64,000 nucleotides of DNA from Tumebacillus algifaecis (lineage in GTDB: Bacteria > Bacillota > Bacilli > Tumebacillales > Tumebacillaceae): contig NZ_CP022657.1 of the NCBI RefSeq assembly GCF_002243515.1, positions 3,581,501-3,645,500 of the forward strand, given 5' to 3'. Positions 3,871 to 55,988 of the stretch are shown here, in pieces. The notes below the pieces were generated by a model. That model had not been told where the DNA came from. It did not search any database and saw only the letters and a program-made list of their open reading frames with translations. The translations under genes and the position numbers were made by a program. The first letter of the stretch is position 1. Every line of letters begins with the position of its first letter.

Positions 3871-3880
3871 AACAGAAACA

Positions 3881-3917: not shown

Positions 3918-3928
3918 TATTTGGAATT

Positions 3929-4743: not shown

Positions 4744-4826
4744 GATCGTTACTTCTCATCCTTGAATGCGGTGCAGAAGAAACATTCTTTAATACTTTGG
4801 TCAATACGGGTCGCCCAATTCACCGT

Positions 4827-5113: not shown

Positions 5114-5142
5114 CAGGGGATCTATTTTGTCATGAAATATCA

Positions 5143-5180
5143 TATGAGCCGACACCCTTGATGGGGATCAGTTGTGCAAC
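5143..5180 (+). repeat. Direct repeat, left copy, flanking mqo
   Basis: TATGAGCCGACAC, then CTTG, GGG and ATCAGTTGT match the copy at 7024-7062 in the same order and orientation, with a few mismatches between. In both copies GCCGAC is preceded by an in-frame TGA. Confidence 0.6.
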
Positions 5181-5186
5181 GAACAA

Positions 5187-10669: not shown

Positions 10670-10687
10670 AGTTGCCCGACTCCTTCT

Positions 10688-42498: not shown

Positions 42499-43185
42499 TT
42501 ACGGCAACACTACGGAACTTGAAAGATTGCCACTGCGAATTTCCATTTGCATATCACATCGAGACGCAACCTCTGGATCGTGTGTCGCGATCACGATTGT
42601 CAAATTCTCTTCTTTCTTGAGTTCACATAATAGGTCAATGATCGAATCTCGCGTCTGACTGTCAAGGTTCCCCGTCGGTTCATCGCACAACAAAATCTTT
42701 GGAGAATTGATGAGGGAACGGGCAATCGCAACTCGTTGCTGTTCACCACCCGATAATTCTGATGGTAGATGATGCAGCCGCTCTGCCAATCCGACACGTT
42801 CGAGCAATTCTTTTGCAACAGCCTCCACTTGGGAAGCGCGTTTGAGAGGAATTTGCGGCACACACACATTATCCAGCGAACTAAATTGCGGAAGGAGATG
42901 GAAATGTTGAAAAACGTAGCCCACCAGATTCCTCCGCAACTCCTCTTGATTCGTACCAACTGCGGACAAGTCTTGACCGTTAAGACGAATCGTCCCAGAA
43001 GTAGGTACATCTACAAGCCCCATCAGATGCAATAATGTTGTCTTACCAGAACCTGAAGGGCCAAGCAGCGCGACCATCTGCCCTTCTTCGACTGCAAAAC
43101 GAATACCTGATAAAACAGAAATTGTTTTCTCGCCACTTGAATACGTTTTCGTAAGATTCTCGACCTCGATCATCGTCTTTTTCAT
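42499..43185 (-). CDS. ABC transporter ATP-binding protein (LolD/MacB type)
   Basis: A 228-residue ATPase with Walker A GPSGSGKTTLLH, Q-loop FQHFHLLPQ, signature LSGGEQQRVAIARSL, Walker B ILLCDEPTGNLDS, and switch His ATHD. This class pairs with FtsX-like permeases and drives extrusion of peptides or lipoproteins. It starts 14 bases after the permease gene. GGGAGG precedes the ATG. G+C is low, as for the permease. Confidence 0.92.
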   Translation of the reverse strand: MKKTMIEVENLTKTYSSGEKTISVLSGIRFAVEEGQMVALLGPSGSGKTTLLHLMGLVDVPTSGTIRLNGQDLSAVGTNQEELRRNLVGYVFQHFHLLPQFSSLDNVCVPQIPLKRASQVEAVAKELLERVGLAERLHHLPSELSGGEQQRVAIARSLINSPKILLCDEPTGNLDSQTRDSIIDLLCELKKEENLTIVIATHDPEVASRCDMQMEIRSGNLSSSVVLP

Positions 43186-43199
43186 TTGGTTGCCCTCCC

Positions 43200-45707
43200 C
43201 TATACAAGTTCCGAAGTGAATTTGTTGATCACTCGTGAAGAGACAAACAGTAAGAAAGCGATCCCTACTAGGAGCACTCCGCCTTGTGTGTATAACGGCA
43301 CTGGAAATTGATCATAAAACAACAGGAAGGTAAGCCATGCGATACCGATCGAAGCAACAATCCCCATTCCTAAAAGGAAAAATAACTCCCCAAGTATCAG
43401 AGTGGAAACATGCTGTTTGCCCCAGCCGACGATCCTCAGAATAAACACTTCTTGTTTGCGTTTCCACAAGAGCGAACGGGTGGCCTCCCAAACTCCGTAG
43501 CAAGTCATCAACAAAGTTGCGCTCACCACCACCCACTGGTACGCATTGGACGCCGCATTAACTTCCATACCTAGGAAGGTCGTACCGATCTGATTCTGTT
43601 CAGCAAGGGTCAAATTAAGAGTAAACATGGCGACCGCTCCAGAACTCACGATCAGGGCGATTGTCCACACATTATAAGGTAGCTGACTCAGCATATTCCC
43701 CAAAATCATCGTCAACATCGACCGTGGCTTGATGCTGTTTTTCGTGAGTCCCCCTTCTTGCCCCAGACGAGTACCACGATGGAGCAACCGCGAAACCAAG
43801 ATCCACGCAGTCAGCAATTGCAACAACACCATCAAGAACTGAATCAAGATCGTAGATCCCCAGTATTCCTCGCTCCCAAACCACGTGTTAAAGAAAATCG
43901 ATGTCACACATGCCAAAACACAGGAAATTCCAACTTTCATACACCATTCCAGCATGACCAATTTACGGATTTCTTGCTTCTTCCATCCAACCATGCGCAA
44001 CAGTTGAAACTCCCGTTCCCGCACCAAAAACTGAGTCTGTGTGTGAACCACCGTGTACACGACGACAATAACGAAAAGCGCCGCCGTTATCCAAATAGAA
44101 AGCTGGTTCACAGCTTGTACGAGCAAGGTCGCAACGCCTAACGTGGTCCAAGTTTCCTCCACTTCTCCAACTGCTGGATAGTCGCTGACTTCGGGAACAT
44201 CGACCACTACAGGTTGTTTTGACGCACCTGCAACAATATCGGTATGTAGACCTGTGAGTTGCTGGATCGCTTTCGAAATTTGGATAATCTTAGATTCAGC
44301 AACCGCGTCGTACTTTTGAATGCCTTCCACACGAACACGAATTGCATCGATCGGTTTTTCACCTTTCAGGAAGGCGGCCGCTTCAAGATTGGTCAGCGCT
44401 GCTGCCGGAACAGGCAAAAATGTGTTCGGAGATGTACCAGAAGTAATGGCCCGTTCAGACCATTTTATCGGTGAAAATGAATAGATTCCTAGTGGGCTCG
44501 GATTCAGATTCGTCGAACTGATTTGGGCGGATTGATAAGTCCCGACAACATTCGGCTTGAACATCAAGTCTCCCAAAGAAGTAGCATCATCTTTGCCCAT
44601 TTGCATCAGCTCTCGGTAATACGTTTTTCCATCCTTAGTAAATGGCTTCAGGATGTAAGAATCCTCTTGCTCTGCCACATTGTATTCGAGGCGATTTGTG
44701 ACATAGTACGAGGAGGTTTTAAGAAAGGAATTGACTCCGTTTGTTTTTCTCGAAATTTCGCCTTGCTTTGAAACAGCAAAAAATGCAGATTGAAAGGGCT
44801 TCACTTTGCCGAGAAGCCACTCCTGAGTATGGCTCGGTTTTTCGGCCAATACATCGGGGAGTAAAGATCCCAACATGCCTGTATTTTGTAAACCAGAAAG
44901 TCGATTGCTAAGTTCCTGCGCTGACTTCGCAGAAGTACGAGTTTCAACGAGTGCTTTTAACTCCGGAGATAGACTTTCATTGACAAGCAACGGTAGTTGA
45001 GGTACCTGCGAACCGTTTGCTAGTTTTGCGTAAGGCAAGTTTTTAGGTAACGTGGGTAACTGGTAGTTTTCATACGCAAGTAGCTTCCCTTCTTCGTCCG
45101 AATCAACACCAACGATCAGATTGTAGGTTTGTGGAAGAGAAAAGCCTACTTTTTCGACCACTTCATTAGGTCCCACTTCCATCCCCATCGCTCGGTTGGC
45201 ATAAAACGAAGGTCGTTCATTGGGTAAGGTGAGCATATAGGTCGTCTCGAGATCGTTATTGGAGAGCGGCAATCCATTTTCTTTATAGATTTTCACTGTG
45301 GTTAAAGTGGGAGATTGCCAAACAGAGCTTGGCAGTTCCAACTCAACACTTCCAGTATCGTTTGTAAAAAAGCCTACGACAGAGACGGGAGCCGCAATCT
45401 CGATGCCGCTAATTTTTTTTATTTTTTCATAATCGGCAATCGAAATTCCGCCCATTCCTCCGGTTAAATAATTTTCCTCCACTTTTTCATCCGATTCTGC
45501 ATTTTCCTTTTGTGGGCGCTCAGGGCGCACCAAGATATCGTAACTGCCTCTGGCAAACATCGCGATCGATTGATCGGTAGCCAATTTTGTTGACTGCAAA
45601 CTACTGATGGAAGCGGGAATCGAGGCCAGCAAAAGAGTGAGCAAAAGTATCGATGTGATAAAGGTCCGTGATGACTTTTTGGCTGACTTTATGATGTAGC
45701 TATACAT
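43200..45707 (-). CDS. Large FtsX-like ABC permease
   Basis: 835 residues. N-terminal TM helix, a very large extracytoplasmic part (about 50-500), then two FtsX-type membrane bundles, each preceded by the coupling-helix pattern (REREFQLLRMVGWKKQEI; KRKQEVFILRIVGWGKQHV). About ten TM segments in total suggest a full transporter with the ATPase downstream. It lies after a small secreted-protein gene, which is a candidate substrate (inference). Low G+C; part of a duplicated locus. Confidence 0.85.
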   Translation of the reverse strand: MYSYIIKSAKKSSRTFITSILLLTLLLASIPASISSLQSTKLATDQSIAMFARGSYDILVRPERPQKENAESDEKVEENYLTGGMGGISIADYEKIKKISGIEIAAPVSVVGFFTNDTGSVELELPSSVWQSPTLTTVKIYKENGLPLSNNDLETTYMLTLPNERPSFYANRAMGMEVGPNEVVEKVGFSLPQTYNLIVGVDSDEEGKLLAYENYQLPTLPKNLPYAKLANGSQVPQLPLLVNESLSPELKALVETRTSAKSAQELSNRLSGLQNTGMLGSLLPDVLAEKPSHTQEWLLGKVKPFQSAFFAVSKQGEISRKTNGVNSFLKTSSYYVTNRLEYNVAEQEDSYILKPFTKDGKTYYRELMQMGKDDATSLGDLMFKPNVVGTYQSAQISSTNLNPSPLGIYSFSPIKWSERAITSGTSPNTFLPVPAAALTNLEAAAFLKGEKPIDAIRVRVEGIQKYDAVAESKIIQISKAIQQLTGLHTDIVAGASKQPVVVDVPEVSDYPAVGEVEETWTTLGVATLLVQAVNQLSIWITAALFVIVVVYTVVHTQTQFLVREREFQLLRMVGWKKQEIRKLVMLEWCMKVGISCVLACVTSIFFNTWFGSEEYWGSTILIQFLMVLLQLLTAWILVSRLLHRGTRLGQEGGLTKNSIKPRSMLTMILGNMLSQLPYNVWTIALIVSSGAVAMFTLNLTLAEQNQIGTTFLGMEVNAASNAYQWVVVSATLLMTCYGVWEATRSLLWKRKQEVFILRIVGWGKQHVSTLILGELFFLLGMGIVASIGIAWLTFLLFYDQFPVPLYTQGGVLLVGIAFLLFVSSRVINKFTSELV

Positions 45708-45739
45708 GGGTCGTCTCTCCGTCCCTTCCTAGAAATAAA

Positions 45740-45760
45740 GGGAGAAGCGGGGCTTCTCCC
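45740..45760 (-). terminator. Stem-loop between secreted-protein gene and ABC permease
   Basis: GGGAGAAGC/GCTTCTCCC stem with a CCC/GGG loop. No strong U-run, so perhaps partial termination before the transporter genes. Confidence 0.55.
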
Positions 45761-45775
45761 TATTGCTAAAATATT

Positions 45776-46180
45776 TTACCAATTTTTTACGTATATATCT
45801 CTCCAATCCCAACTGCTCACTCCACCACTGTTTGTATTCAACTGAATACGGTAAATATTCGCAGAGCCATACAACCAACGCCAAGTCTTCGTTTTGTTAT
45901 AGCCACTATATCCGCTGGAATTCCCATCACCCCAATAAATCGTACTGCCAAAGAATCCATTTCCTCCATCCCAGCTACCAGTACCATCCAGATACAATTG
46001 GTTGAAGTACGGTTGACTTGTTGAAAGAGTTGTCGTTACATAATCACCGCCCTCAGGAGCGACTAGAGAATTCTCATATACAGTCTTTTGATCGACTACC
46101 GTTCCAGCAAAAGCAATGCTACCACCAGAGATTGACAGCGTCAGACCTAATGACAAAACCAGTAGAACTGCCTTTTTCAT
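45776..46180 (-). CDS. Small secreted Trp/Gly-rich protein, possible ABC substrate
   Basis: 134 residues. Signal peptide ends at IAFA near residue 25; the mature part is rich in Trp, Tyr, Gly and Ser and ends DWRDIYVKNW. No Cys. AGAGGTGATTTT precedes the ATG. It comes directly before the ABC permease and ATPase on the same strand, in the arrangement seen for bacteriocin-type secreted proteins and their exporters or immunity pumps. It does not match lactococcin 972 residues well. Function unknown. Confidence 0.7.
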   Translation of the reverse strand: MKKAVLLVLSLGLTLSISGGSIAFAGTVVDQKTVYENSLVAPEGGDYVTTTLSTSQPYFNQLYLDGTGSWDGGNGFFGSTIYWGDGNSSGYSGYNKTKTWRWLYGSANIYRIQLNTNSGGVSSWDWRDIYVKNW

Positions 46181-46420: not shown

Positions 46421-47181
46421 ACATCAGGCAACGAACGGCCCTGATCATTGGAGTAGCGATTTCCGCCCTTTTGCTCGGTTGCACCGATGAGACGGCGCAA
46501 GAGAATACATCTGTCCAGCAAGATCCGACGCCAAGTGCTTCTCAGGCTCAAAAATTGCTCAGCATCAGAGCGAACTACGCACCACCCGAGAAAAAACAAA
46601 CACCGACTCAGTCGGCACTTCATCAATTGGTGTGGGAACTATCCAACTCTGAGAAACGCTCCCCAACACCGCAAGATATACAGTGGACGACCACGTTCTT
46701 ACAGAACAGCGTGGTCATGCTGAAAGTTCCTGTTACAGACCCGTGGTTCAATCTGGTATTTCTTTCCCAGCAGGAGCAGGAATGGACCATGTTTGGATAT
46801 GCGAATCTCCCTGTCACCACGGATCGAATGAACTCATCGAAAAACGGGCTCAACTTGCCGATGAATAGCTTTAATTCCGCCCATTTGTCCGACAGCACGA
46901 ACACCCACTTCATCTGGGCTTTTTTAGATGAAGCGAAACATGTGGTCATCTGGAAATATCCACATACTGCCCCGTTCTCAGTCAACGCGAACGCCAAGGT
47001 TGTTTCGATCAACGGACGAGAAGGTTGGTATGCCACCCAAGAAACGGACAGTGGATACTTGTACTACATCGAACAAGGTCACGTCGTTTGGCTGACTGGA
47101 AATGTGACCGAAAGTGAATTGTTATCGGTTGCAAGGTCACTACCTAGCTCGACATCACACTCCTTTCCTTACACATACTAG
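46417..47181 (+). CDS. Putative lipoprotein
   Basis: 254 residues with lipobox LLLGC (Cys about 22), then a Gln/Thr/Pro-rich linker and a domain of about 190 residues with no family I recognise. Its start overlaps the stop of a short upstream frame. There is no clear ribosome binding site, which supports coupling to, or degradation of, a former upstream gene. Confidence 0.65.
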   Translation: MNIRQRTALIIGVAISALLLGCTDETAQENTSVQQDPTPSASQAQKLLSIRANYAPPEKKQTPTQSALHQLVWELSNSEKRSPTPQDIQWTTTFLQNSVVMLKVPVTDPWFNLVFLSQQEQEWTMFGYANLPVTTDRMNSSKNGLNLPMNSFNSAHLSDSTNTHFIWAFLDEAKHVVIWKYPHTAPFSVNANAKVVSINGREGWYATQETDSGYLYYIEQGHVVWLTGNVTESELLSVARSLPSSTSHSFPYTY

Positions 47182-47309
47182 CTGAATTAGCCGCATGAGA
47201 TTCCTACCCGATCAACGCACGCCTTGTCCTTGTTTTCGAATTGGAAAAATGATACAATAGATCTCAGTTGTTACTTTAACAATTTACTTTTCGTGAGGAG
47301 CGAAGTGAA

Positions 47310-47729
47310 GTGTCTATTGATGCTTATCTGAATTTTAATGGAAATTGCCGTGAAGCGGTGGAGTTTTACACCGATGTTTTCGGTGCTGAGAAACCTCAAC
47401 TCATGACATTTGCAGACATGCCGCCGCATCCCGATTATCCGCTCGCTGAAGAATCAAAACAACTGATCATGCACACTCAGCTGACCATCGGCGGAAGCAG
47501 AGTGATGTTTTCAGACGTAATGCCCGAGATGCCTTTTGTAGTTGGCAACAACATCAGCTTGGCTTTTGTAACGGACAACAAGGATGATATTCAATCCGCC
47601 TTTGAAAAGCTGAAAGTAGGCGGCACTGTTAATATGGAACTGCAAGAAACGTTCTGGAGCAAATACTTCGGCATGGTGACCGATAAATTTGGCGTGGGCT
47701 GGCAATTGAACTTGAACGTTGAGGAGTAA
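47310..47729 (+). CDS. VOC-superfamily protein (PhnB/glyoxalase-like)
   Basis: 139 residues, two beta-alpha-beta-beta-beta modules. The opening AYLNFNGNCREAVEFYTDVFGAE and TDKFGVGWQLNL at the end are typical of PhnB-like VOC proteins. Metal-binding enzymatic role unknown. GTG start after GAGGAG. Terminator downstream. Confidence 0.88.
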   Translation: MSIDAYLNFNGNCREAVEFYTDVFGAEKPQLMTFADMPPHPDYPLAEESKQLIMHTQLTIGGSRVMFSDVMPEMPFVVGNNISLAFVTDNKDDIQSAFEKLKVGGTVNMELQETFWSKYFGMVTDKFGVGWQLNLNVEE

Positions 47730-47772
47730 TAACGGCTCAATCCTATTTTCCACATGGATTGCCGTGTAACCA

Positions 47773-47807
47773 AAAGGCGACGCTTCCGCATCGGAGGCGC
47801 CGCCTTT
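47773..47807 (+). terminator. Terminator after the VOC gene
   Basis: AAAAGGCG/CGCCTTTTT outer stem with inner GCTTCC/GGAGGC. Confidence 0.75.
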
Positions 47808-47882
47808 TTGTGCACTTCGAGGTATCTGGGTGGGATGTCTGCTCGCTGGCAGTCCAAACTCCCTCCTGTCGCATCACAAAAA

Positions 47883-47914
47883 ACGGATTCGGAGCTCGCC
47901 TGCCCCGAATCCGT
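47883..47914 (-). terminator. Terminator of the peptide/radical-SAM locus
   Basis: ACGGATTCGG/CCGAATCCGT stem followed by TTTTTTTG on the minus strand, just past the second MFS gene. Confidence 0.85.
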
Positions 47915-47935
47915 CTTGCCCTACCACGACCTCAT

Positions 47936-49198
47936 CTACACCGCCTGCGTCTCTTCTCCCACCGACTCGCGGTACAGTTTTCCCTTCAGCCACAGGAATA
48001 GCACCGCTGCCGACACGACGCAGATCGCCGCCAGCATCCAGCCGCCGATGGCGCTCGGGATGTAGCCGCCGATAATGGAAAACAGCGGCAGGGAGATGCC
48101 GTACGCCAACCGAGACATCGACAGCCAGGTCGCCACGACTCGTCCGCGCAGTTCCGGTTTCGAGTAGGTCATCAGCGAGGTTTCTGTGATCACGTTTACT
48201 TTGGATTGGAAGATGTTCGCGAGCAGCATCACCGCGAAGAACAAGTACCAGTTGTGAATGATAAACATGCATCCAAGCCCGATCCCATACAACATGTTGG
48301 ATGGGAAGTAGATCTTGAAATACGAACTGTCGTCAAACTTGCGCTTTTTAAAATACTGCTTGAGCAAGACCGCCCCGATGATATAGGCGACGGCCGTCAC
48401 CGAGTAACCGATGCCGACGCCCGCGTCACCCGCTTGCAGTTCGTTCAGGACGTAAAGCGGGAACAGGATATAGATAAATCCGAGACAGAAGTCACGGAAG
48501 AATTGCAGCCAGAACACGCTGACCAATTGCGGGCATTTTTTTACATACTCGATCCCCTCTTTGACCTGTTGCAGATAAGGCAGGCGCGCCGCTGACTTTT
48601 TCTCCATCGGGGTGTACTTGATCAGCGCGATAAACACAGCCGATACCAAATAAGAGAACGCGTCAAAATACAGGATGTTCACAGCGCCGACCCACTGGGT
48701 CAAAAAGCCACCTATGGCGCTGGCCAGCACCATCATGGTCGAGTTGAGCAGCGCAAACGACGAAGTGGCTGCGATCAAGTTTTGCTCCTTCAAAATCTCG
48801 GGAATCATCGAGGTCCGCGCCGGAGCGAAGGCGGCCGATGCGAACGCGCCAAACGAGATACAGGCGTAGATCACCCAGATGTTCTCCATCATCACACCCG
48901 CAACGATCCCAAGCGTCGAGATCGTACGCAGGATGTCTACCCAAATCATCAAGCGCTTCTTGTTCCAGCGATCGACAAACGGCCCCATCATAATGCCACC
49001 GAACAGCACCGGCAGGACACTGGCGATGAACAGACCTCCGATCGAGGAGGCGGTAGGCACGATGGCATAGATCACCGAAATCAGCGCGATCGTTTTAAAC
49101 CAGTCGCCAAACAAGGAGACCATCTGCCCGAAATAGAGCATGGTAAAATTGCGATTTTTAAACGGAGACGGCAATTTCTCCGTCGTCGCTGTAGACAT
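47936..49198 (-). CDS. MFS exporter 2 of the ultrashort-peptide locus (DHA3-like)
   Basis: 420 residues, 12 TM segments, of the DHA3/enterobactin-exporter-like MFS group: NRNFTMLYFGQMVSLFGDWF, GPFVDRWNKKRLMIW, SAAFAPARTSMIPEI. It is a clear paralog of the exporter at 53356-54600 (same order of motifs). It is the last gene after the mini-ORF array and radical SAM enzyme 2, so it probably exports the modified peptides, in the way MccC exports microcin C (inference). ATG at 49198 after GGGGGG. A 12-bp hairpin separates it from the enzyme gene. Confidence 0.88.
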   Translation of the reverse strand: MSTATTEKLPSPFKNRNFTMLYFGQMVSLFGDWFKTIALISVIYAIVPTASSIGGLFIASVLPVLFGGIMMGPFVDRWNKKRLMIWVDILRTISTLGIVAGVMMENIWVIYACISFGAFASAAFAPARTSMIPEILKEQNLIAATSSFALLNSTMMVLASAIGGFLTQWVGAVNILYFDAFSYLVSAVFIALIKYTPMEKKSAARLPYLQQVKEGIEYVKKCPQLVSVFWLQFFRDFCLGFIYILFPLYVLNELQAGDAGVGIGYSVTAVAYIIGAVLLKQYFKKRKFDDSSYFKIYFPSNMLYGIGLGCMFIIHNWYLFFAVMLLANIFQSKVNVITETSLMTYSKPELRGRVVATWLSMSRLAYGISLPLFSIIGGYIPSAIGGWMLAAICVVSAAVLFLWLKGKLYRESVGEETQAV

Positions 49199-49247
49199 GT
49201 CGAACCCCCCTTTTCCAAAATGATAAACGGTCAAGTGACAAACAAAG

Positions 49248-49280
49248 ACCAGCATGAAGCGAGCGCCTCTTCATGCTGGT
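49248..49280 (-). terminator. 12-bp stem-loop between radical SAM enzyme 2 and MFS exporter 2
   Basis: ACCAGCATGAAG/CTTCATGCTGGT perfect stem, CTTTGTTTG after it on the minus strand. Possibly a partial terminator. Confidence 0.65.
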
Positions 49281-49286
49281 GAACGC

Positions 49287-50648
49287 CTATTGAATCACGG
49301 CAAGCTCCGTGTTCTCGTAGAAGTCTCGATCCTTTTGCGTATACTCGACATATCGGTCATACGTCTTCTTCTGATCTTCCGGCAGCAGGTCGATCATCAC
49401 ATGCATATACCAGATCTTGCCGAGTTCGGTCAGTTTGAGCAGCCCGTCTTCTTTGATGACCAGCCCCATTTTTTCAAACTTTTCGATCTTTTCCCAATAC
49501 TCGGCTGGCAAGTCGAGCTGGCTCAGGTACTCCAGCGATACTTTCATGTGTTTCGGGAAGTAGATCAATCCTTTTTCTTTCGCATCATACTCTTTGGCAC
49601 GCATGACCGGCAGGGTGCCGTTCTCCACCGCGCGGATGTACTCATCAGTCCTCACGCTGTTCGAATGCGAGATACCGCTCAAGTACGAAGCAGCCGCCTG
49701 ACCGCAGCCGATGTATTCGTCTTCGTAGCTGCCGTAGATCGTCGCCCCAAATTTGAAATCTTTGTACGCCGCATCCTTTTTCGCAAAGGTGTAAATATGC
49801 GTCTGCTCGTACCCATGATTGAGCAGATAGGAGTTGACGAACTGATGTTGAAGCACCTTGTCGTCCGCTTTCGGCGGCGCCGGCACCCGACCGTCTTTGA
49901 TCATGTTCAGGAAGCCTTTGGAGGTGACGAGATATTCGAGCGGGTAGACGTCAACACTGGTCGTCCCAAGTTCGCGCACACTCTCAAGGTCCTCATGCAA
50001 TTGCTCGATCGTCTGCCCCGGCAGTTGATAGAGCAGGTCCATATTGTACGCTTTGAAATACTTCTCCGCCAGTTCTCGCGTTTGCTTGATTTCGTCAAGC
50101 GAAGCGGTCAGGTTGAACAATTTGCGGTAGTACGGATTAAAAGTTTGAACGCCAAAGGAGATCCGATTGACACCGTTCGCCGCCATCGCTTTCAGCTTGT
50201 CTTCCGAAGCGCTCTTCGCCTCGACTTCGAAGCTCCACTCGATGTCATCTTTTAACGTGAAATTCTCTTGAATCGTCGTGCAGAGGTCTTCGATCATCTT
50301 CGGAGACAACACGGAAGGCGTGCCGCCGCCAACATAGATGGCATCGAGCTTGAACTGTTGGATATAGGGCGTGCTGGCGATGGCTTTCAACTCTTTGAGC
50401 AGCGAATCCACGTAGGGCTGCAATTTGTCTTGGTAGTTCGTCGAACGAATGAACGGACAGAACGTGCAGATCGTGTCACAGAACGGAATGTGCACATAAA
50501 GCGACTTCGTTCCTGGCAACGGCGTACGCGCCGAGTTCAAAAATTGACGAACGGTCTCCACCGGTTCCGGCCCCTCTTGGATGAACGGATAGAGATAGTT
50601 CCACATGTTTGGCAGTTTTTTGTAAGGCAAAGCGCTATGCTGCGACAT
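49287..50648 (-). CDS. HemN/HutW-like radical SAM enzyme 2 (putative peptide-modifying)
   Basis: 453 residues. The cluster motif is C57-x3-C61-x2-C64 (HIPFCDTICTFCPF), followed by YVGGGTPSVLS (the GGE-like SAM site), NRISFGVQTFNP and MDLLYQLPGQT. The layout is that of HemN, HemW and HutW proteins, which include class C radical SAM methyltransferases and anaerobilin synthases. No haem genes are adjacent. It sits right after an array of ultrashort Trp-containing ORFs and before an MFS exporter, so I infer it modifies those peptides, perhaps at the conserved Trp. A porphyrin or haem role cannot be excluded. Confidence 0.88.
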   Translation of the reverse strand: MSQHSALPYKKLPNMWNYLYPFIQEGPEPVETVRQFLNSARTPLPGTKSLYVHIPFCDTICTFCPFIRSTNYQDKLQPYVDSLLKELKAIASTPYIQQFKLDAIYVGGGTPSVLSPKMIEDLCTTIQENFTLKDDIEWSFEVEAKSASEDKLKAMAANGVNRISFGVQTFNPYYRKLFNLTASLDEIKQTRELAEKYFKAYNMDLLYQLPGQTIEQLHEDLESVRELGTTSVDVYPLEYLVTSKGFLNMIKDGRVPAPPKADDKVLQHQFVNSYLLNHGYEQTHIYTFAKKDAAYKDFKFGATIYGSYEDEYIGCGQAAASYLSGISHSNSVRTDEYIRAVENGTLPVMRAKEYDAKEKGLIYFPKHMKVSLEYLSQLDLPAEYWEKIEKFEKMGLVIKEDGLLKLTELGKIWYMHVMIDLLPEDQKKTYDRYVEYTQKDRDFYENTELAVIQ

Positions 50649-50678
50649 CTTTGTAAGTACCCCCTTTTCTTGGTCAGA

Positions 50679-50707
50679 GGCTGACAGGGGTTGCCCCCCT
50701 GTCAGCC
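50679..50707 (-). terminator. 12-bp stem-loop between the mini-ORF array and radical SAM enzyme 2
   Basis: GGCTGACAGGGG/CCCCTGTCAGCC perfect stem with a 5-base loop and no U-run. It likely stabilises the array mRNA or limits readthrough into the enzyme gene. Confidence 0.75.
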
Positions 50708-50738
50708 GAATATGTGATCACAGATTCTGGCGCCTATG

Positions 50739-50768
50739 TTACGCAGCTACGATGATCCACTCACGCAT
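50739..50768 (-). CDS. Mini-ORF 9: nine-residue peptide MREWIIVAA
   Basis: ATG to TAA, nine sense codons. AAAGGGGGAGAGAAC lies directly upstream, a near-ideal binding site. It shares the MREWI start with mini-ORF 7. It is the last member of the array, 30 bases before the stem-loop. Precursor role inferred from the array, the conserved start and the adjacent radical SAM gene. Confidence 0.6.
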   Translation of the reverse strand: MREWIIVAA

Positions 50769-50782
50769 GTTCTCTCCCCCTT

Positions 50783-50836
50783 TCAAATAGCATCGGCGCA
50801 GCAAACGCACGTTGAAGATACCATCCATGCGCGCAT
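50783..50836 (-). CDS. Mini-ORF 8: 17-residue peptide MRAWMVSSTCVCCADAI
   Basis: ATG to TGA. Its DNA matches mini-ORF 6 from the ATG onward (MRxW, then the shared TCAACGTGCGTTTGCTGCG), but an indel shifts the frame so that it gains three Cys and ends early. GAGGAAAGCGCAAAGGG precedes the ATG. It may be a decayed member rather than a working precursor. Confidence 0.4.
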   Translation of the reverse strand: MRAWMVSSTCVCCADAI

Positions 50837-50883
50837 CCCTTTGCGCTTTCCTCACCATCTACGAGGTCGAACTTTTCAGAAGA

Positions 50884-50922
50884 TTACTCGATCGTCACGC
50901 CTACGAGAATCCACTCACGCAT
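50884..50922 (-). CDS. Mini-ORF 7: 12-residue peptide MREWILVGVTIE
   Basis: Strong AAAGGGGGAGGAAAC directly before the ATG. It ends with Glu and TAA. It lies in frame with mini-ORF 6, whose reading runs through into it; its own binding site favours separate initiation. Confidence 0.6.
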   Translation of the reverse strand: MREWILVGVTIE

Positions 50923-50991
50923 GTTTCCTCCCCCTTTCATGAAGCTACGGCGCAGCAAACGCACGTTGACGATACTAAGCCATTCGCGCAT
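50884..50991 (-). CDS. Mini-ORF 6: MREWLSIVNV-type peptide that reads through into mini-ORF 7
   Basis: Opens MREWLSIVNVRLLRRSF and has no stop before the ATG of mini-ORF 7, so it could give a 35-residue fusion. The binding site is weaker (GAGGAAC, 13 bases away). It is probably a member that lost its stop codon: the corresponding unit at mini-ORF 8 stops before the next ATG. Confidence 0.4.
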   Translation of the reverse strand: MREWLSIVNVRLLRRSFMKGGGNMREWILVGVTIE

Positions 50992-51027
50992 TTCTTTTCA
51001 CGTTCCTCATGAACGATGCGGCAGCGC

Positions 51028-51069
51028 TTAGAAACCTTTCGTATCTCCGATAGGAAGCCAATTTTTCAT
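51028..51069 (-). CDS. Mini-ORF 5: 13-residue peptide MKNWLPIGDTKGF
   Basis: AAAGGGGGGACACAAG precedes the ATG. Trp at position 4 and a hydrophobic next residue keep the family pattern, but the tail differs from all others. The C-terminal Gly-Phe recalls the Phe end of mini-ORF 3. Confidence 0.6.
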   Translation of the reverse strand: MKNWLPIGDTKGF

Positions 51070-51115
51070 CTTGTGTCCCCCCTTTCACGAGATGAGTCAG
51101 GATTGTCATACACCA

Positions 51116-51151
51116 CTACAGTTCAACTACAGGGATCCATTCTTTGATCAT
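51116..51151 (-). CDS. Mini-ORF 4: 11-residue peptide MIKEWIPVVEL
   Basis: GAGAGGGGGTGTACGGC precedes the ATG. It differs from mini-ORFs 1 and 2 by Leu-Thr to Ile-Pro and Ala to Leu: conservative changes with the frame kept. Confidence 0.65.
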   Translation of the reverse strand: MIKEWIPVVEL

Positions 51152-51189
51152 GCCGTACACCCCCTCTCGTTTCGCCTGCGGTGGGACGA

Positions 51190-51237
51190 TTAAAATTCCA
51201 CATCAGATGTGCCTACAGAGAGCCATTCTTTGATCAT
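51190..51237 (-). CDS. Mini-ORF 3: 15-residue peptide MIKEWLSVGTSDVEF
   Basis: The same leader DNA as mini-ORFs 1 and 2 (GAGGGGGTGTACG). The first eight residues follow the family, then a new tail GTSDVEF. Confidence 0.65.
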   Translation of the reverse strand: MIKEWLSVGTSDVEF

Positions 51238-51458
51238 TACGTACACCCCCTCGTTTTGCACATGATCGGTTGAGAGTTATTTACTTCACCGCCACCAACC
51301 GTGGAACTGTCACACACCACTACGCTTCAACGACAGTGAGCCATTCTTTGATCATCCCGTACACCCCCTCGTTTTGCCCATGATCGGTTGAGAGCTATTT
51401 ACTTCACCGCCACCAACGGTGGGACTGTCACACACCATTACGCTTCAACGACAGTGAG
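51223..51458 (-). repeat. 118-bp tandem repeat carrying mini-ORFs
   Basis: 51223-51340 and 51341-51458 are about 93% identical, with partial copies on both sides (from 51137 and 51459). Each unit spans the binding site, the mini-ORF start and a spacer containing a short CCACC/GGTGG hairpin. Confidence 0.8.
51320..51355 (-). CDS. Mini-ORF 2: 11-residue peptide MIKEWLTVVEA
   Basis: Identical product to mini-ORF 1, with a TAG instead of a TAA stop. GAGGGGG lies 8 bases before the ATG; an in-frame GTG three codons earlier overlaps that site. Confidence 0.65.
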   Translation of the reverse strand: MIKEWLTVVEA

Positions 51459-51473
51459 CCATTCTTTGATCAT
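51438..51473 (-). CDS. Mini-ORF 1: 11-residue peptide MIKEWLTVVEA
   Basis: First member of the array in transcription order, after an AT-rich region (51500-51600) likely to hold a promoter. GAGGGGG 8 bases before the ATG. The product contains Lys-Glu-Trp, the most conserved part of the family, and ends Glu-Ala. Two identical copies suggest selection for dosage or recent duplication. Confidence 0.65.
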   Translation of the reverse strand: MIKEWLTVVEA

Positions 51474-51608
51474 CCCGTACACCCCCTCGTTTTGCTTACG
51501 TTAGATATGTATTTAAGGCTAAAACAAATTATCACACGTCAGTTGAATTATTAACCGGAAAATATTTTATTAAATAACATAAATCCCTTCCTCTCTTCAC
51601 AATCAGAA

Positions 51609-51635
51609 AACCCGGACTGGTAGTCAGTCCGGGTT
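51609..51635 (-). terminator. Terminator after radical SAM enzyme 1
   Basis: AACCCGGACTG/CAGTCCGGGTT stem followed by TTCTGATT on the minus strand. It separates the P0-enzyme 1 unit from the mini-ORF array. Confidence 0.8.
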
Positions 51636-51651
51636 CCGTGTCTGTTCCTGA

Positions 51652-53016
51652 TTAGGTAAACACGATCAATTCATCATCAAACGTGAAGTCTGCACGCTCG
51701 TTCAACTGGGAGGAGATCCGGTCATGCACTTCGCGGGTGCGCTCCGGCAACATTTCAATCATCATGTTCATATACCACGGCTGGCCTTCGCGAGTCAGCA
51801 AGAGCCGGTTACCTTCTCGTTTGATCAAACCTTTTGCTTCGAACTGGTCGAGCAATTCATAGTAGCGGGCATCCAACTCATGACGGTCGATGTCATCAAG
51901 ATCGATCGACATCCGTTTGGGGAAGTAGATCAAGCCTTTCTCACGTGCATGGTAGTCGTTGACGATCTCGACAGACAGCCCGTTTTCTTCGACCGCACGG
52001 AGATAGTTTTCCACCGTGTCAAAATTGCGATAGACCATGCCCGCTTGGTAGGAAAAAGCGGAAAGTCCTGCCCCGATACACTCATCTTCGTAGTGACCGT
52101 ACAACGTCTCACCGAACATGAACCGTTTGTGTTCGGCATCTTGGCGAATAAAGGTATAGATGAACTCCTGCTTGTAGCCGTGCTCAACGAGGAATTGGGT
52201 CACCGCCTCCTGCTGAGCCACCTTTTCATACGCGTTCGGCGGCTTGGGAATGCGTTCATTTTTGATCGACTGCAGGAACCCTTTGGAGGTGATCGTGTAG
52301 TCGAGCGGATACGCATCAATCGAGGTGGTATTCAGTTCAAGCGCATGTTGCAGATCTGCCTGAATCTCTTCCCATGTCTGACCTGGCAATTGGTAGAGCA
52401 AGTCCATGTTAAATCCTTTGAAATACTTACCTGCCAGCTCCCGCGTGCGTTTGATCTCATCGTGCGATGCTGTCAAATTGAACATTTTGCGGAACTTCGG
52501 GTCGAAAGTCTGAACACCAAACGAGATGCGATTAACACCCTGTTCGTGCATCGCCTTCAATTTGTCTTCTGTCGCGCTTTTCGCTTCCACTTCAAACGTC
52601 CATTCGAAACCGTTTTTCAGTTTGAAGTGGCTGTGGACCGTCTCACCGATCATGTGGATCTGCTCTGCCGAAAGCACGGAAGGCGTTCCGCCGCCGACGA
52701 AGATTGCATCGAGCGCTACTCCTTGAATGCGCGGGGTAGAGGCGATGAGCTTCAGCTCTTTGATCAACGCATCCACATACGGCTGCAATTTATCCTGATA
52801 GTTGGTCGAACGGACAAACGGGCAAAACGTGCAGATCGTATCACAGAATGGAATGTGCATGTACAGCGTCTTCTTGCCACGTTGAGGTGCTGGCGTTTGT
52901 AAAAATTGACGCACATGCTCCACCGAAAGATCAGAACGCTTCAGATAGGGGTAGAGGTACACCCACATCTTAGGCAACGCGTGAAAGGGGAGCTCTTTTG
53001 CTCCAGAATCGGACAT
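51652..53016 (-). CDS. HemN/HutW-like radical SAM enzyme 1 (putative peptide-modifying)
   Basis: 454 residues, a close paralog of enzyme 2. C58-x3-C62-x2-C65 in HIPFCDTICTFCPF, then FVGGGTPSVLS, NRISFGVQTFDP and MDLLYQLPGQT. It sits 137 bases after the 15-residue mini-gene with a stem-loop in between. The pairing of each radical SAM paralog with its own mini-ORF set argues for co-evolved enzyme and substrate. The ATG at 53016 has GAGGAGG at good spacing; upstream in-frame ATGs are too close to it. Confidence 0.88.
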   Translation of the reverse strand: MSDSGAKELPFHALPKMWVYLYPYLKRSDLSVEHVRQFLQTPAPQRGKKTLYMHIPFCDTICTFCPFVRSTNYQDKLQPYVDALIKELKLIASTPRIQGVALDAIFVGGGTPSVLSAEQIHMIGETVHSHFKLKNGFEWTFEVEAKSATEDKLKAMHEQGVNRISFGVQTFDPKFRKMFNLTASHDEIKRTRELAGKYFKGFNMDLLYQLPGQTWEEIQADLQHALELNTTSIDAYPLDYTITSKGFLQSIKNERIPKPPNAYEKVAQQEAVTQFLVEHGYKQEFIYTFIRQDAEHKRFMFGETLYGHYEDECIGAGLSAFSYQAGMVYRNFDTVENYLRAVEENGLSVEIVNDYHAREKGLIYFPKRMSIDLDDIDRHELDARYYELLDQFEAKGLIKREGNRLLLTREGQPWYMNMMIEMLPERTREVHDRISSQLNERADFTFDDELIVFT

Positions 53017-53091
53017 GTTCATGGCCTCCTCGTCTTTTCTCATCACATCTTCTATAAATGAACTCTATGAGCATACCCCTCGTATCAGAAT

Positions 53092-53124
53092 AGCAAGGAG
53101 AGGAAAAAATTCCCTCTCCTTGCT
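53092..53124 (-). terminator. 12-bp stem-loop between mini-gene P0 and radical SAM enzyme 1
   Basis: AGCAAGGAGAGG/CCTCTCCTTGCT perfect stem, no U-run after it on the minus strand. It corresponds in position to the stem-loop before enzyme 2. Confidence 0.7.
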
Positions 53125-53153
53125 CCAGCAGCAGTTCATTTCTGAACGACTCT

Positions 53154-53201
53154 CTAGTTCTCGATAATGATCCAGTTACGTTCGTGGATGATCCAAGACA
53201 T
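53154..53201 (-). CDS. Mini-gene P0: 15-residue peptide MSWIIHERNWIIIEN
   Basis: ATG to TAG, 15 sense codons. TTAGGAGGTGAAAGAC, a perfect ribosome binding site, precedes the ATG, and a near-consensus promoter lies 46 bases further. The peptide carries the Trp-Ile-Ile-x-Glu motif twice (SWIIHE, NWIIIE), matching the E-W-[I/L] core of the array peptides. First gene of the unit with radical SAM enzyme 1. The strong expression signals make a real product likely. Precursor or signal function is inference. Confidence 0.7.
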   Translation of the reverse strand: MSWIIHERNWIIIEN

Positions 53202-53246
53202 GTCTTTCACCTCCTAAAAATATAAATGAATATTGATCACATAAAT

Positions 53247-53275
53247 ATTATAATCTTTCATTTTATTGTTTTCAA
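53247..53275 (-). promoter_or_regulatory. Near-consensus housekeeping promoter of mini-gene P0
   Basis: TTGAAA (53270-53275), 17-base spacer, TATAAT (53247-53252) on the minus strand, in very AT-rich DNA. Confidence 0.85.
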
Positions 53276-53330
53276 TATAAATTATAAATTAAATATTTAT
53301 CTACAAATTGTGACAGGCCCCCAAAAAGAA

Positions 53331-53356
53331 GAACCCTTGTCATGACAAGGGTTCTT
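53331..53356 (-). terminator. Palindromic terminator of MFS exporter 1
   Basis: AGAACCCTTGTCA/TGACAAGGGTTCT perfect palindrome, T-run on the minus strand. Confidence 0.8.
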
Positions 53357-54600
53357 TAGGCATGCATTGTCGATTTTTCTTTTGCTCTGTCACCTAGCGC
53401 CGCTTTCAACCACGGGGAGACAAGGAGTGCGGAGATCACACAGACTCCAGTCAGAATGTAGCCACCGATGTGCGTCGGAATATAGACGCCGATCACCGAG
53501 AATAACGGGAGCGAGATCGCATAGGCGAGGCGCGAAGCGGTCAGCCAGGACGCGACGACACGACCGCGGTTGTCAGCTCTCGAGTAGGTCATCAGCGACG
53601 TTTCGGCAATGATGTTCACACCTTGCGAGAAGATATAGGTTACGACGAGGGCGACCAAGAACCAATACCAGCCCGTCATGGAGAACATCACACCGAGTCC
53701 GACCCCGTAGATGATATGGCAAGGGAAGAAGATCTTGAAAAAGGCGCTCTCGTCAAACGGTTTTTTCTTAAAATACCACTTGATCAGCCATGCGCCGATC
53801 AGATAAGCGACCGCCGTCATCGAATAGCCGATGCCCATGCCCGTGTTACCCGTCTGCACCACTTCGAGAATGAAGATCGCAAAGAGGATGTAGACATACC
53901 CGAGCACAAAGTCACGCGCAGCTGTGATCCAAAATACAGCGACCAACTGCGGGGTGGCGCGGACATAGTCGTACCCTTCTCTGACTTGCTGCCAGTACGG
54001 CGGGCGGACTTTGACCTCTGTTGGCTGGGGGTGATAGCGCATCAAGACGATACAGACGGCCGCAAAGAGATAGGAAAATGCATCAAAATACATGATCGGA
54101 TAAGGGCCGACCCAGTCGGCCACAAAACCGCCGAGCGCGCTTGCAACAACCATCGTGATCGAATTGAGGATCGCAAAGGAGGAAGTTGCTTTGATGATCT
54201 GCTTTTCTTCGACGATCTCCGGCACCATCGCCGTGCGCGCAGGCTGGAAAGCGGCAGAGACGAGGCTTGAGGCGACGATCAGCGCATAGATCAGCCAGAT
54301 GTTCTGAAGATAGACCCCGTACACGATCATCAGCGTCAACACGAAGCGCAACAGGTTGCTCCAGATCATGATTCGCTTTTTGTTCCAGCGATCCACAAAA
54401 GGTCCGACAAAAATACTGCCAAACAGCGTGGGCAGGATCGTGGCGATAAACATGCCGCCAACTGTAGCGGCCGACGGGTGCAGTTCGTATAGAATGACAA
54501 TCATCACCACGCCTCGGAACCAATCGCCAAACAGGGAAACGAGTTGACCCAAGTACAGCAGCGTGAAATTGCGATTGTGAAACAATGAAGGCTCTTTCAC
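53356..54600 (-). CDS. MFS exporter 1 of the ultrashort-peptide locus (DHA3-like)
   Basis: 414 residues, 12 TM segments. NRNFTLLYLGQLVSLFGDWF, GPFVDRWNKKRIMIW, SAAFQPARTAMVPEI and YSRADNRGRVVASWL mirror the exporter at 47936-49198. GTG at 54600 after AAGGGGG. It is upstream of the P0 promoter and has its own terminator, so it is a separate transcript. Probable efflux of the peptide product or self-protection (inference from context). Confidence 0.88.
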   Translation of the reverse strand: MKEPSLFHNRNFTLLYLGQLVSLFGDWFRGVVMIVILYELHPSAATVGGMFIATILPTLFGSIFVGPFVDRWNKKRIMIWSNLLRFVLTLMIVYGVYLQNIWLIYALIVASSLVSAAFQPARTAMVPEIVEEKQIIKATSSFAILNSITMVVASALGGFVADWVGPYPIMYFDAFSYLFAAVCIVLMRYHPQPTEVKVRPPYWQQVREGYDYVRATPQLVAVFWITAARDFVLGYVYILFAIFILEVVQTGNTGMGIGYSMTAVAYLIGAWLIKWYFKKKPFDESAFFKIFFPCHIIYGVGLGVMFSMTGWYWFLVALVVTYIFSQGVNIIAETSLMTYSRADNRGRVVASWLTASRLAYAISLPLFSVIGVYIPTHIGGYILTGVCVISALLVSPWLKAALGDRAKEKSTMHA

Positions 54601-54649
54601 AGCACAGCCCCCTTCTTTTATTTTATAATCATCTATTAAAAATAAAAAT

Positions 54650-54682
54650 ACCAGCAACAGGGCAAAATCCCTGCATGCTGGT
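54650..54682 (-). terminator. Terminator after the M16 peptidase pair
   Basis: ACCAGCA...AGGG/CCCT...TGCTGGT stem with ATTTTTATTTTT after it on the minus strand. Confidence 0.75.
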
Positions 54683-54704
54683 ACCATTTTCTTCATATTT
54701 CTTT

Positions 54705-55988
54705 TTATTTTGGCAAAACGATCGAGACGGTCCGCATCTCTGGATCGAGATGTTCACGTAGACGCTGGTTGACCTGCTCCAACGTCAAGCTTTCCATCAC
54801 GCCAATGATGTCGAAGAAATCCGCATCGCGGAACGTATAGCTCGTAAAATAACGGGCGAGGGCACGCGCCGAATCGAGCGCCGCCACCATTTGACCGACC
54901 ATCTTGCAACGGGCCCGATTGAAGTCCTCCTCCGAAACGCCATGTTCTGTCGCTTCGGCAAATGCCGCTTCGACCACCGCCAACACGCGATCCGGATCTT
55001 TCGTATTACCGCCGAAGATGGAGTGGGCAAAGCGCGGAGTTACATCATAGGACCAGCTAAAGCGTTTGTCGATGATGCCCTCCTCGTACATGCGGTTAAA
55101 GAGCGGCGAGCTTCTCCCGATCAGCGCTTCCAGACCGATCGAAGTCGCATACTCGTTGATGATCATCTCTTTGCCAGACACACGGCTCATGTCTTTGAAA
55201 CCAAATTGCATAGAAGGCATCGAGATCAGCATTTTTTCTTCGTGGCGCGCACGGCGAACAGGGGTCGGCTCATTTTGGATAATGCGCTCGATCTCCGGCT
55301 GGCGTTTGAAATCTTTTGCCGCCTGGTTGTCACGAATCAGCGCATGAATGTGCACCGGGTCAACATCCCCCACCACGACCACCGACATGTTGCTCGGATG
55401 GTAGAACGTGTTGTAACACTTGTACAGGGTATCCTTGTCGATCTGCTGAATCGTATCCACCGTTCCGGCAATGTCGATGGCGATCGGATGCACCTGATAC
55501 ATCCCTTCGATCAGATTGAAATAAACGCGCCAAGCGGGATCGTCATCATACATGCGAATCTCCTGCTCGATGATCCCTTTCTCCTTTTCGACGTTCTCCT
55601 CGGTGAAGTAGGGCTCCTGCACGTAGTTGAGCAGCGTGGTCAGGTTCTCATCCAGGAAATCGGTCGAAGAGAACAGATAGGCGGTCGTATCAAACGAAGT
55701 GAACGCATTTGACATCGCGCCATAGCGGGCGAACGTTTTAAACACGTCTTCACCGCTCTCCTGTTCGAACATCTTGTGCTCCAAGAAATGAGCGATGCCG
55801 TCCGGAACGATCGTCGGTTCGTCGGCACCGGGCACAACAAACTCACGGTCGATCGAACCGTATTTTGTGGAGAACATCGCGTAAGTTTGCTTGAATCCTT
55901 CCCGCGGGATCACGTATACGTTTAGCCCGTTGTCTAGTTGATCGTGGAAAGCGCTCAGTTTCAGTTGTTCATTGCGAATTTCACGCAC
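54705..55988 (-). CDS. M16 zinc metallopeptidase, catalytic subunit (YmfH-like)
   Basis: 427 residues. The inverted zinc motif is present as HFLEH (67-71), with the downstream Glu in EKEKGIIEQEI near 141. It resembles YmfH, annotated in Firmicutes as associated with EF-P aminopentanol modification, and also the AlbF and PqqF-type subunits that process RiPPs. It overlaps the preceding non-catalytic subunit gene by 8 bases (GTG start after GAGGAGGGG), so a heterodimer is likely. It may be a housekeeping gene or the processing protease for the adjacent peptide locus. Confidence 0.9.
   Translation of the reverse strand: MREIRNEQLKLSAFHDQLDNGLNVYVIPREGFKQTYAMFSTKYGSIDREFVVPGADEPTIVPDGIAHFLEHKMFEQESGEDVFKTFARYGAMSNAFTSFDTTAYLFSSTDFLDENLTTLLNYVQEPYFTEENVEKEKGIIEQEIRMYDDDPAWRVYFNLIEGMYQVHPIAIDIAGTVDTIQQIDKDTLYKCYNTFYHPSNMSVVVVGDVDPVHIHALIRDNQAAKDFKRQPEIERIIQNEPTPVRRARHEEKMLISMPSMQFGFKDMSRVSGKEMIINEYATSIGLEALIGRSSPLFNRMYEEGIIDKRFSWSYDVTPRFAHSIFGGNTKDPDRVLAVVEAAFAEATEHGVSEEDFNRARCKMVGQMVAALDSARALARYFTSYTFRDADFFDIIGVMESLTLEQVNQRLREHLDPEMRTVSIVLPK

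Follow-up and report, generated by a model that had tools for sequence, protein, structure and literature searches.

What is the role of very small open reading frames (ORFs) that are lined up beside radical S-adenosylmethionine (SAM) enzymes and exporters? The question is raised by a locus on the minus strand of a 64,000-nucleotide stretch of the 4.5 Mb genome of Tumebacillus algifaecis (contig NZ_CP022657.1, positions 3,581,501 to 3,645,500; this whole stretch is called the window in what follows). There, a set of mini-ORFs accompanies two genes for HemN-like radical SAM enzymes (rSAM_A and rSAM_B) and two genes for putative exporters of the major facilitator superfamily (MFS_A and MFS_B). 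An earlier note on this DNA had suggested that each of the mini-ORFs is a miniature gene for one peptide, which is modified by the radical SAM enzymes and exported. We consider it likely that the mini-ORFs encode leaderless, often multi-core precursors of ribosomally synthesized and post-translationally modified peptides (RiPPs), that a HemN-fold enzyme using two SAM molecules modifies them, probably at tryptophan, and that the MFS protein exports the product.

The mini-ORFs and their conservation

Read along the minus strand (Table 1), MFS_A is followed by a terminator-like hairpin, a sigma-A-like promoter, the mini-ORF MSWIIHERNWIIIEN, a hairpin and rSAM_A, and then by seven mini-ORFs (51473 down to 50739), another hairpin, rSAM_B and MFS_B. 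Both the pair of paralogous radical SAM genes and the MFS paralog at either end had been announced in the earlier note and are present, with MFS_A falling outside the interval (47883-53275) within which the locus had been drawn. The count of ten mini-ORFs of 9-17 codons held in part. Eight of them (9-15 codons) combine the motif described below with a strong Shine-Dalgarno (SD) sequence, the duplex energies with the anti-SD being -13.5 to -17.7 kcal/mol, as expected from the strong ribosome binding sites that had been claimed, while the two others are weak and look decayed. One of these, MRAWMVSSTCVCCADAI, has lost the motif and falls short of an SD of -8 kcal/mol, and is probably a decayed copy; the same probably applies to the in-frame fusion MREWLSIV...MREWILVGVTIE, which has a weak upstream start. 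The two units with the peptide MIKEWLTVVEA, 118 bases apart, are near-identical in DNA. The likeness among the copies in the window is partly the result of recent tandem duplication, and therefore the real test lies in other genomes.

Among 398 Bacilli genomes searched at E <= 1e-62, 11 had a match to the enzyme. Ten of them belong to the clade of the window enzymes, namely all seven genomes of the Tumebacillus family and three others (G204, G240 and G363), and the eleventh (G339) belongs to a sister clade; in a phylum-wide sample of 398 genomes (E <= 1e-70) only the own genome matched. The enzyme was found in two of the three genomes of the G204 genus and in one of the 23 of the G363 family, and a tblastn search of plasmids added a Cytobacillus kochii plasmid, with an enzyme identity of 46% and the unit order mini-ORF, rSAM, MFS. 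As the genome searches used strict E limits and few candidates scored per genome, more divergent members could have escaped them. The 14 enzymes of these 11 loci (seven Tumebacillus-family genomes, three other Bacilli and the Cytobacillus plasmid) formed a single clade, with support 99/98, in a maximum-likelihood tree of 29 rows; the HutW of Vibrio (with hutXZ) and five presumed HemW rows fell outside, with a long-branch warning for the outgroups. Of 14 query proteins (13 from the window plus a DinB-family protein), only rSAM and MFS had a match in all ten other loci, in a comparison to which shared genes absent from the window are invisible.

Conservation of the mini-ORFs beside homologous radical SAM genes had been set beforehand as the point on which the proposal should stand or fall, and W-core mini-ORFs were indeed found at all 11 clade loci (window included): 31 ORFs of 9-35 codons, 28 with ATG and three with GTG starts, containing 54 Trp. 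The final filter was W[ILVF]x[VLI], SD <= -10.5 kcal/mol and up to 40 codons, applied to manually delimited stretches around the rSAM and MFS genes. The SD threshold was fixed after a pair in L078 (loci of other genomes are designated by such numbers) had scored -10.7, and the controls were rerun at that value; an initial ceiling of 30 codons had missed three arrays of 31-35 codons. With the earlier limits of SD <= -11 and 30 codons, and with L083 of the sister clade among them, 11 homologous loci had given 20 Trp ORFs, 18 of them with the motif. The residue directly after Trp (+1) is always I, L, V or F (40, 10, three and one cases out of 54), position +3 is V, I or L in 50 of 54 (41, six and three, with four others), and E precedes Trp in 26 of the 54. 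One Trp per ORF fits the motif by selection, because the motif is the filter; the other 23 Trp are free, and each of them is followed by I, L, V or F.

Many of the mini-ORFs are arrays of cores, e.g., MEKNSWIINVEKNSWIINERNWIVVQERNWIIVAV (L037), MNKWIAVEWIAVEPQWISVEPLWLPVVPVEA (L039), MTREWIAVEPQWIAVELSWISVNEPTWLPVTEL (L040), MSKWISVEPLWIAVEPLWLPVVPVAE (L041), MSNEWISVKNEWIAV (twice in L078) and MKKEWVALKNEWVAL (L082), and the spacing between one Trp and the next is seven in 14 of 23 cases. At the other extreme, simple mini-ORFs such as MRQVNEWVAL (L079) and MRQSTEWFTV (L080) stop exactly at W+3, which suggests that the conserved unit is the core itself. The picture of ultrashort genes with one peptide each does not extend to the relatives, in which one ORF may hold up to four repeats, so that multi-core precursor is the better description. 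Ahead of rSAM_A, the counterparts of MSWIIHERNWIIIEN are MEKNWIIAVERNWIVVQERNWIIVAA in L036 and MEKNSWIINVEKNSWIINERNWIVVQERNWIIVAV in L037, and the peptide adjoining rSAM_B, MREWIIVAA, is identical in L036 and reads MREWIVVAA in L037.

With the same filter, not a single motif ORF was found in the 57.1 kb of the window outside the locus, vs. eight inside it, nor in 92.1 kb from 23 HemW control loci (149 kb of controls in total). When any Trp was accepted at SD <= -11, these controls did yield short ORFs, two in the 92 kb of HemW loci and four in the 57 kb of the window. We also used a stringent DNA pattern, GRGGN{5,11}ATGMGNGARTGGATHNTNRTN, which stands for an SD and ATG-[R/S]-E-W-I-[L/I/V/F/M]-[V/I/M] and was written once the motif was known. 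It matched in four of the 398 Bacilli genomes, all four among the ten that carry the rSAM clade and every match inside the locus (the three rows from G002 represent a single ORF); read backwards, the pattern gave no match. The hypergeometric probability is 2e-7, a figure to be taken as a guide only, the four genomes being kin. A related pattern had two matches in the own genome, both at the locus. Selection on the mini-ORFs, which the earlier note had required, is seen at the peptide level in nine alignable pairs, chosen by hand and non-independent, that pooled gave pS 0.43 and pN 0.06 (ratio 0.15, Fisher p 1e-11). Along similar lines, the Val at +3 in 38 cores is written with all four codons (GTA nine, GTC six, GTG four and GTT eight times).

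Table 1. Features of the mini-ORF locus and their positions in the window (SD, duplex energy with the anti-SD in kcal/mol).
Feature	Position	Strand	Remarks
MFS_B, putative exporter (P0003)	47936..49198	-	MFS_1 102.2 bits; TIGR00900 168 bits, below cut-off 319.6
rSAM_B, HemN-like radical SAM enzyme (P0002)	49287..50648	-	56% identity to rSAM_A
Strong RNA hairpin between mini-ORF group and rSAM_B	50679..50707	-	segment z -3.65; counterpart segment in L036, z -2.98
Mini-ORF MREWIIVAA, adjoining rSAM_B	50739..50768	-	SD -13.5; matched by the 398-genome DNA pattern
Doubtful mini-ORF MRAWMVSSTCVCCADAI	50783..50836	-	SD short of -8; motif lost
Mini-ORF MREWILVGVTIE	50884..50922	-	SD -13.5; matched by the 398-genome DNA pattern
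In-frame fusion MREWLSIV...MREWILVGVTIE	50884..50991	-	SD -7.4; weak upstream start at 50991; 35 codons
Mini-ORF MKNWLPIGDTKGF	51028..51069	-	SD -14.0
Mini-ORF MIKEWIPVVEL	51116..51151	-	SD -17.7
Mini-ORF MIKEWLSVGTSDVEF	51190..51237	-	SD -14.5
Mini-ORF MIKEWLTVVEA, second copy (tandem duplicate)	51320..51355	-	SD -14.5
Mini-ORF MIKEWLTVVEA	51438..51473	-	SD -14.5
rSAM_A, HemN-like radical SAM enzyme (P0001)	51652..53013	-	Pfam Radical_SAM 69.6 bits; CX3CX2C = C57, C61, C64
Strong RNA hairpin between mini-ORF 53201 and rSAM_A	53092..53124	-	segment z -2.99
Mini-ORF MSWIIHERNWIIIEN, first gene of the rSAM_A unit	53154..53201	-	SD -14.5; 15 codons; two W cores
Sigma-A-like promoter TTGAAA-17-TATAAT	53247..53275	-	11/12 matches; start 74 nt 5' of the ATG at 53201
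Terminator-like hairpin 3' of MFS_A	53329..53356	-	12 pairs, then CTTTTTGGGG
MFS_A, putative exporter (P0004), MFS_B paralog	53356..54600	-	56-57% identity to the MFS_B counterparts of L036 and L037

The enzymes and the proposed peptide route

The best-known reactions of HemN-like enzymes belong to porphyrin and haem chemistry or are steps on complex antibiotics. Pfam recognized Radical_SAM in both enzymes of the window and a sub-threshold HemN_C in rSAM_A, and the best-scoring NCBIfam model was that of HutW/ChuW (TIGR04107), with 222.9 and 219.3 bits under a cut-off of 400. None of the named families could be assigned. HemN coproporphyrinogen dehydrogenase (TIGR00538, 157.5 and 155.9 bits, cut-off 324.95), HemW (TIGR00539, 159.3 and 160.4 bits, cut-off 205.4, with the HemW rows outside the clade) and HemZ all scored under their cut-offs, and haem degradation by HutW/ChuW was set aside also because the adjoining genes are mini-ORFs and MFS, not hutXZ. 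The cysteines of CX3CX2C are invariant in all 20 aligned rows, and this motif in a HemN-related chain is one of the features of class C (two-SAM, HemN-like) radical SAM enzymes. A truncated extra copy of rSAM_A (63% over 90 residues) in L036, at 11072-11341, is a sign of gene turnover at the locus.

Relatives in the PDB by sequence (hmmsearch, E <= 0.001) were only HemN (1olt) and the two-SAM RiPP enzyme NocN (9p2u). According to excerpts of its description, NocN is a class C RiPP methylase whose second SAM is contacted by Tyr34, Tyr96, Arg153, Asp196 and Ser225, and Arg171 forms a salt bridge with the carboxylate of SAM-I (PMC12871812). Mapped by hand onto rSAM_B, the five contacts correspond to Y51, Y105, R162, D204 and D233. 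The counterparts of Tyr34 and Asp196 (Y51 and D204) are invariant in the 20 aligned rows, and so is D233, as Asp and not Ser; R162 is shared by the 14 rows of the mini-ORF clade, where the counterpart of Tyr96 is Y or F. From this comparison the rSAM enzymes are predicted to bind two SAM molecules.

We infer that the peptide is the substrate of the enzyme. Each mini-ORF would provide one or more cores W-[I/L]-x-[V/I/L] with almost no leader, and the HemN-fold enzyme, with its two SAM, would modify the peptide itself, the most likely site being the Trp of every core, because this is the only residue common to all cores. The type of enzyme suggests a one-carbon transfer from the second SAM, e.g., C-methylation or the formation of a methylene bridge to a residue nearby. 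An alternative target would be the Ile or Val next to Trp; another type of radical SAM enzyme has been shown to change Val in short repeats (PMC9062424). General peptidases would then trim the product or split the multi-core arrays, and the MFS protein would export it, possibly as a bioactive compound. The window may be seen as two parallel units of this kind, one running from the promoter through MSWIIHERNWIIIEN and a hairpin to rSAM_A (with MFS_A just upstream) and the other from the seven mini-ORFs through a hairpin to rSAM_B and MFS_B. The two may differ in specificity, with ERNWII-type peptides belonging to rSAM_A and the other types to rSAM_B, since the same pairing is found in L036 and L037.

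The locus has what we take as the signature of a RiPP, i.e., a precursor that is conserved, under selection and linked to a candidate modifying enzyme. Several points weigh against our reading all the same. Two of the nine codon pairs, which are not independent, show no synonymous excess. The stringent pattern misses six of the ten rSAM-bearing genomes, whose peptides start differently. The usual marks of a RiPP cluster are missing, as the Pfam scan of both enzymes reported no SPASM and no RiPP recognition element (RRE), although a diverged RRE can escape Pfam, and no peptidase recurs at all loci in the comparison, which covered the window proteins and DinB. The M16 peptidases that adjoin the locus were considered as processing enzymes and discarded, being present in the fetched stretches of only three of the ten other loci (L036, L037 and L038). 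As for the enzyme, NocN Arg171 aligns to N179, and therefore SAM binding may differ from that of NocN, and an AlphaFold model built from a shallow alignment of five rows was poor (mean pLDDT 57). Finally, W mini-ORFs are absent at seven of the nine sister-clade loci (L043, L044, L045, L081, L084, L085 and L111), so that the presence of a HemN-like enzyme next to an MFS gene is not enough to infer a peptide.

On balance, we lean towards regarding the system as a new RiPP class, defined by leaderless precursors of 9-35 residues, many of them W-[I/L]-x-V arrays, and a HemN-fold two-SAM enzyme that would recognize the core itself, without leader, RRE, SPASM or cluster peptidase, followed by MFS export; the three-part unit is thinly spread among Bacilli and occurs once on a plasmid. 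The parts are of known kinds (radical SAM RiPPs, tiny precursors as in biarylitides, MFS export), and what appears to be new is a leaderless radical SAM RiPP made by a HemN-fold enzyme. Microcin C is the product of a mini-gene with a dedicated MFS exporter, and its heptapeptide is joined to a nucleotide by an adenylating enzyme. The likeness lies in the mini-gene and the MFS protein; the difference, in having two radical SAM and two MFS genes as the large genes instead of an adenylating enzyme. The radical SAM maturases of sactipeptide and streptide type have the SPASM domain or RRE that were not detected here, with the proviso that a diverged RRE could be missed. HutW/ChuW, the anaerobic haem-degrading radical SAM methyltransferase, provides the top-scoring model, under its cut-off as said, and differs in having hutXZ neighbours in Vibrio, the HutW of which stands outside the clade (on a long branch). 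NosN and NocN, the class C methylases of nosiheptide and nocathiacin, resemble the present enzymes in sequence, RiPP context and action on an indole. They share the invariant counterparts of Tyr34 and Asp196 but not Arg171, and the NocN substrate is, in the excerpts of its description, a thiopeptide precursor that carries an indolic acid and has a leader of 37 residues (PMC12871812), whereas here the whole peptides have 9-35 residues with the Trp in the chain. Biarylitides are described, again in excerpts, as P450 RiPPs with precursors of five residues, encoded by genes so small that automatic annotation misses them (PMC13417212; PMC12951456). They resemble our mini-ORFs in this respect and differ by their P450 and aromatic cross-links, where the present locus has a radical SAM enzyme, often several cores per precursor, and no P450 among its four large genes. 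In the poly-cyclopropylglycine peptide TvgA, a short repeat occurs in several copies, and in every copy the radical SAM enzyme TvgB modifies an aliphatic residue (PMC9062424). TvgB is a member of the peptide-modifying IPR023867 subfamily, which binds up to three clusters, and the enzymes here have no SPASM match. Among the literature matches listed, judged by titles and the starts of abstracts, there was no family that pairs HemN-like enzymes with mini-ORF precursors.

If this is true, HemN-like enzymes would be found to act directly on peptides that need no more than a minimal motif for recognition, and radical SAM RiPPs could be made by a leaderless route; with only 9-15 residues, the peptides would, moreover, make the enzyme easy to test and use. 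Annotation easily passes over genes of this kind, which is why the class may have gone unnoticed. A simple rule for finding it would be to screen about 1 kb of DNA on either side of HutW-like genes with an MFS neighbour for short ORFs that combine a strong SD with [E/N]-W-[I/L]-x-V cores.

Other explanations for the mini-ORFs

The mini-ORFs could instead encode exported signalling peptides (pheromones), modified or not, for which a regulator would be the sensor. Peptides of 9-15 residues, like those of the window, are of a size usual for pheromone genes, and L083 of the sister clade has, about 0.4 kb from its mini-ORF (4222-5439), an HTH-TPR regulator that is of the peptide-sensing type by its domain make-up. 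Multi-core arrays and several variants side by side would, however, be unusual for one receptor, and we hold this explanation to be unlikely. A signalling role of the product is, on the other hand, compatible with the modified RiPP that we favour.

There is also a classical explanation for small ORFs with Trp codons, namely leader peptides, in which ribosome stalling at the Trp codon together with a hairpin would control the rSAM and MFS genes by attenuation, the enzyme acting on a small molecule. A mini-ORF lies 5' of rSAM with a strong hairpin in between in the window, L036, L079, L080, L082 and L083 (segments with z about -2.8 to -5.1) and with a weaker one in L078 (z -1.97). Such a hairpin fits an attenuator as well as a device for having more precursor than enzyme mRNA. 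The gene order in other genomes speaks against leaders. The four mini-ORFs of L038 come after the MFS gene, and those of L039, L040 and L041 are on the opposite strand, convergent with the MFS-rSAM genes, so that at four of the 11 loci there is no leader ORF directly upstream on the same strand and attenuation is excluded for these genomes. This makes attenuation decidedly unlikely. Besides, the Trp codons are single, mostly seven residues apart and not in a run, and positions +1 and +3 keep their residues while their codons change synonymously. Neither of the two hairpins in the window has a T run behind it, a row of seven separate mini-ORFs would be hard to explain as one leader, and no Rfam match at gathering scores was found in 47000-55000.

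A third possibility would be Trp-rich antimicrobial or membrane peptides that stay unmodified, beside a radical SAM enzyme that belongs to a different pathway encoded at the same place. The sequences are rich in W, I and V, and the best-scoring named families of the enzyme act on porphyrins or haem. We nevertheless find this highly improbable, given that peptide and enzyme are coupled at all 11 clade loci, in several gene orders and on one plasmid, and that only rSAM and MFS, among the 14 queries, are common to all the other loci. Lastly, chance, i.e., short ORFs of the spacers multiplied by local tandem duplication, could account for the near-identical copies in the window and for the Trp-containing short ORFs without motif seen in the controls, and is in our judgement already refuted by the absence of motif matches in the 149 kb of controls and by a genome-wide pattern confined to the locus.

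Sister enzymes and neighbouring features

Two sister-clade loci have mini-ORFs, MERNILIIW (L042) and MRDIVWDIVW (L083), that fit only an added wording of the motif and are outside the count of 31. The latter, on an Alicyclobacillus plasmid, has a strong SD and is just upstream of the enzyme, and this one case hints that the mini-ORF habit is older than the main clade. Between rSAM and MFS of the same plasmid (7480-7878) there is a protein of 132 residues with no Pfam match, which by eye resembles a SAM decarboxylase without the catalytic motif. The other sister loci have different companions. The plasmids of Klebsiella pneumoniae (L084) and Glaesserella parasuis (L085) carry sister enzymes with a P450 and MFS, L085 with a SAM decarboxylase as well, and on a Xenorhabdus plasmid (L111) the sister enzyme is accompanied by MFS, a SAM decarboxylase and an annotated ornithine decarboxylase; this Xenorhabdus enzyme bears the annotation HutW, yet it does not group with the HutW of Vibrio. 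G339 (L081) has two radical SAM proteins of B12-binding type, the HemN-like enzyme, a protein of oligopeptide-binding type and then an MFS-like ORF. One of the B12-type proteins resembles the RiPP enzyme ApyD (268 bits, cut-off 750), and a scan of L081 found no precursor; L043-L045 resemble L081 by eye, only L081 having been scanned. More distant matches were found in phage records, 16 at about 25-34% identity (14 of them unannotated and two labelled coproporphyrinogen oxidase), and at seven loci of viral_contigs with 25-35% identity, in five of which (L099-L103) a scan detected no multi-core ORF.

In L036 the promoter site and its distance to the ATG are as in the rSAM_A unit of the window. 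The region as a whole has six promoter-like sites, vs. a mean of 6.3 after shuffling, so there is no excess, and of the 14 upstream stretches scanned a match was present in four (the A units of the window and L036, L078 and L082) and absent in ten, including that of the second mini-ORF group of the window. A DinB-family protein, possibly for self-protection and possibly there by chance, adjoins the MFS gene in L078, L079, L080 and L082, on the other strand in L079 and L080. In L078 (G363) the cassette of mini-ORF, rSAM and MFS sits between two alike ORFs of 437 residues (3442-4755 and 9821-11131), the first of which had no Pfam or NCBIfam match. Elsewhere in the window, at 42499-46180, a putative secreted protein of 134 residues (no Pfam or NCBIfam match) is followed by a permease of FtsX type and an ATPase that reached 192.5 bits with the lactococcin-972-type exporter model (cut-off 254.85), LolD being higher-scoring. 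This is possibly a second bacteriocin-like unit, unrelated to the mini-ORF locus.

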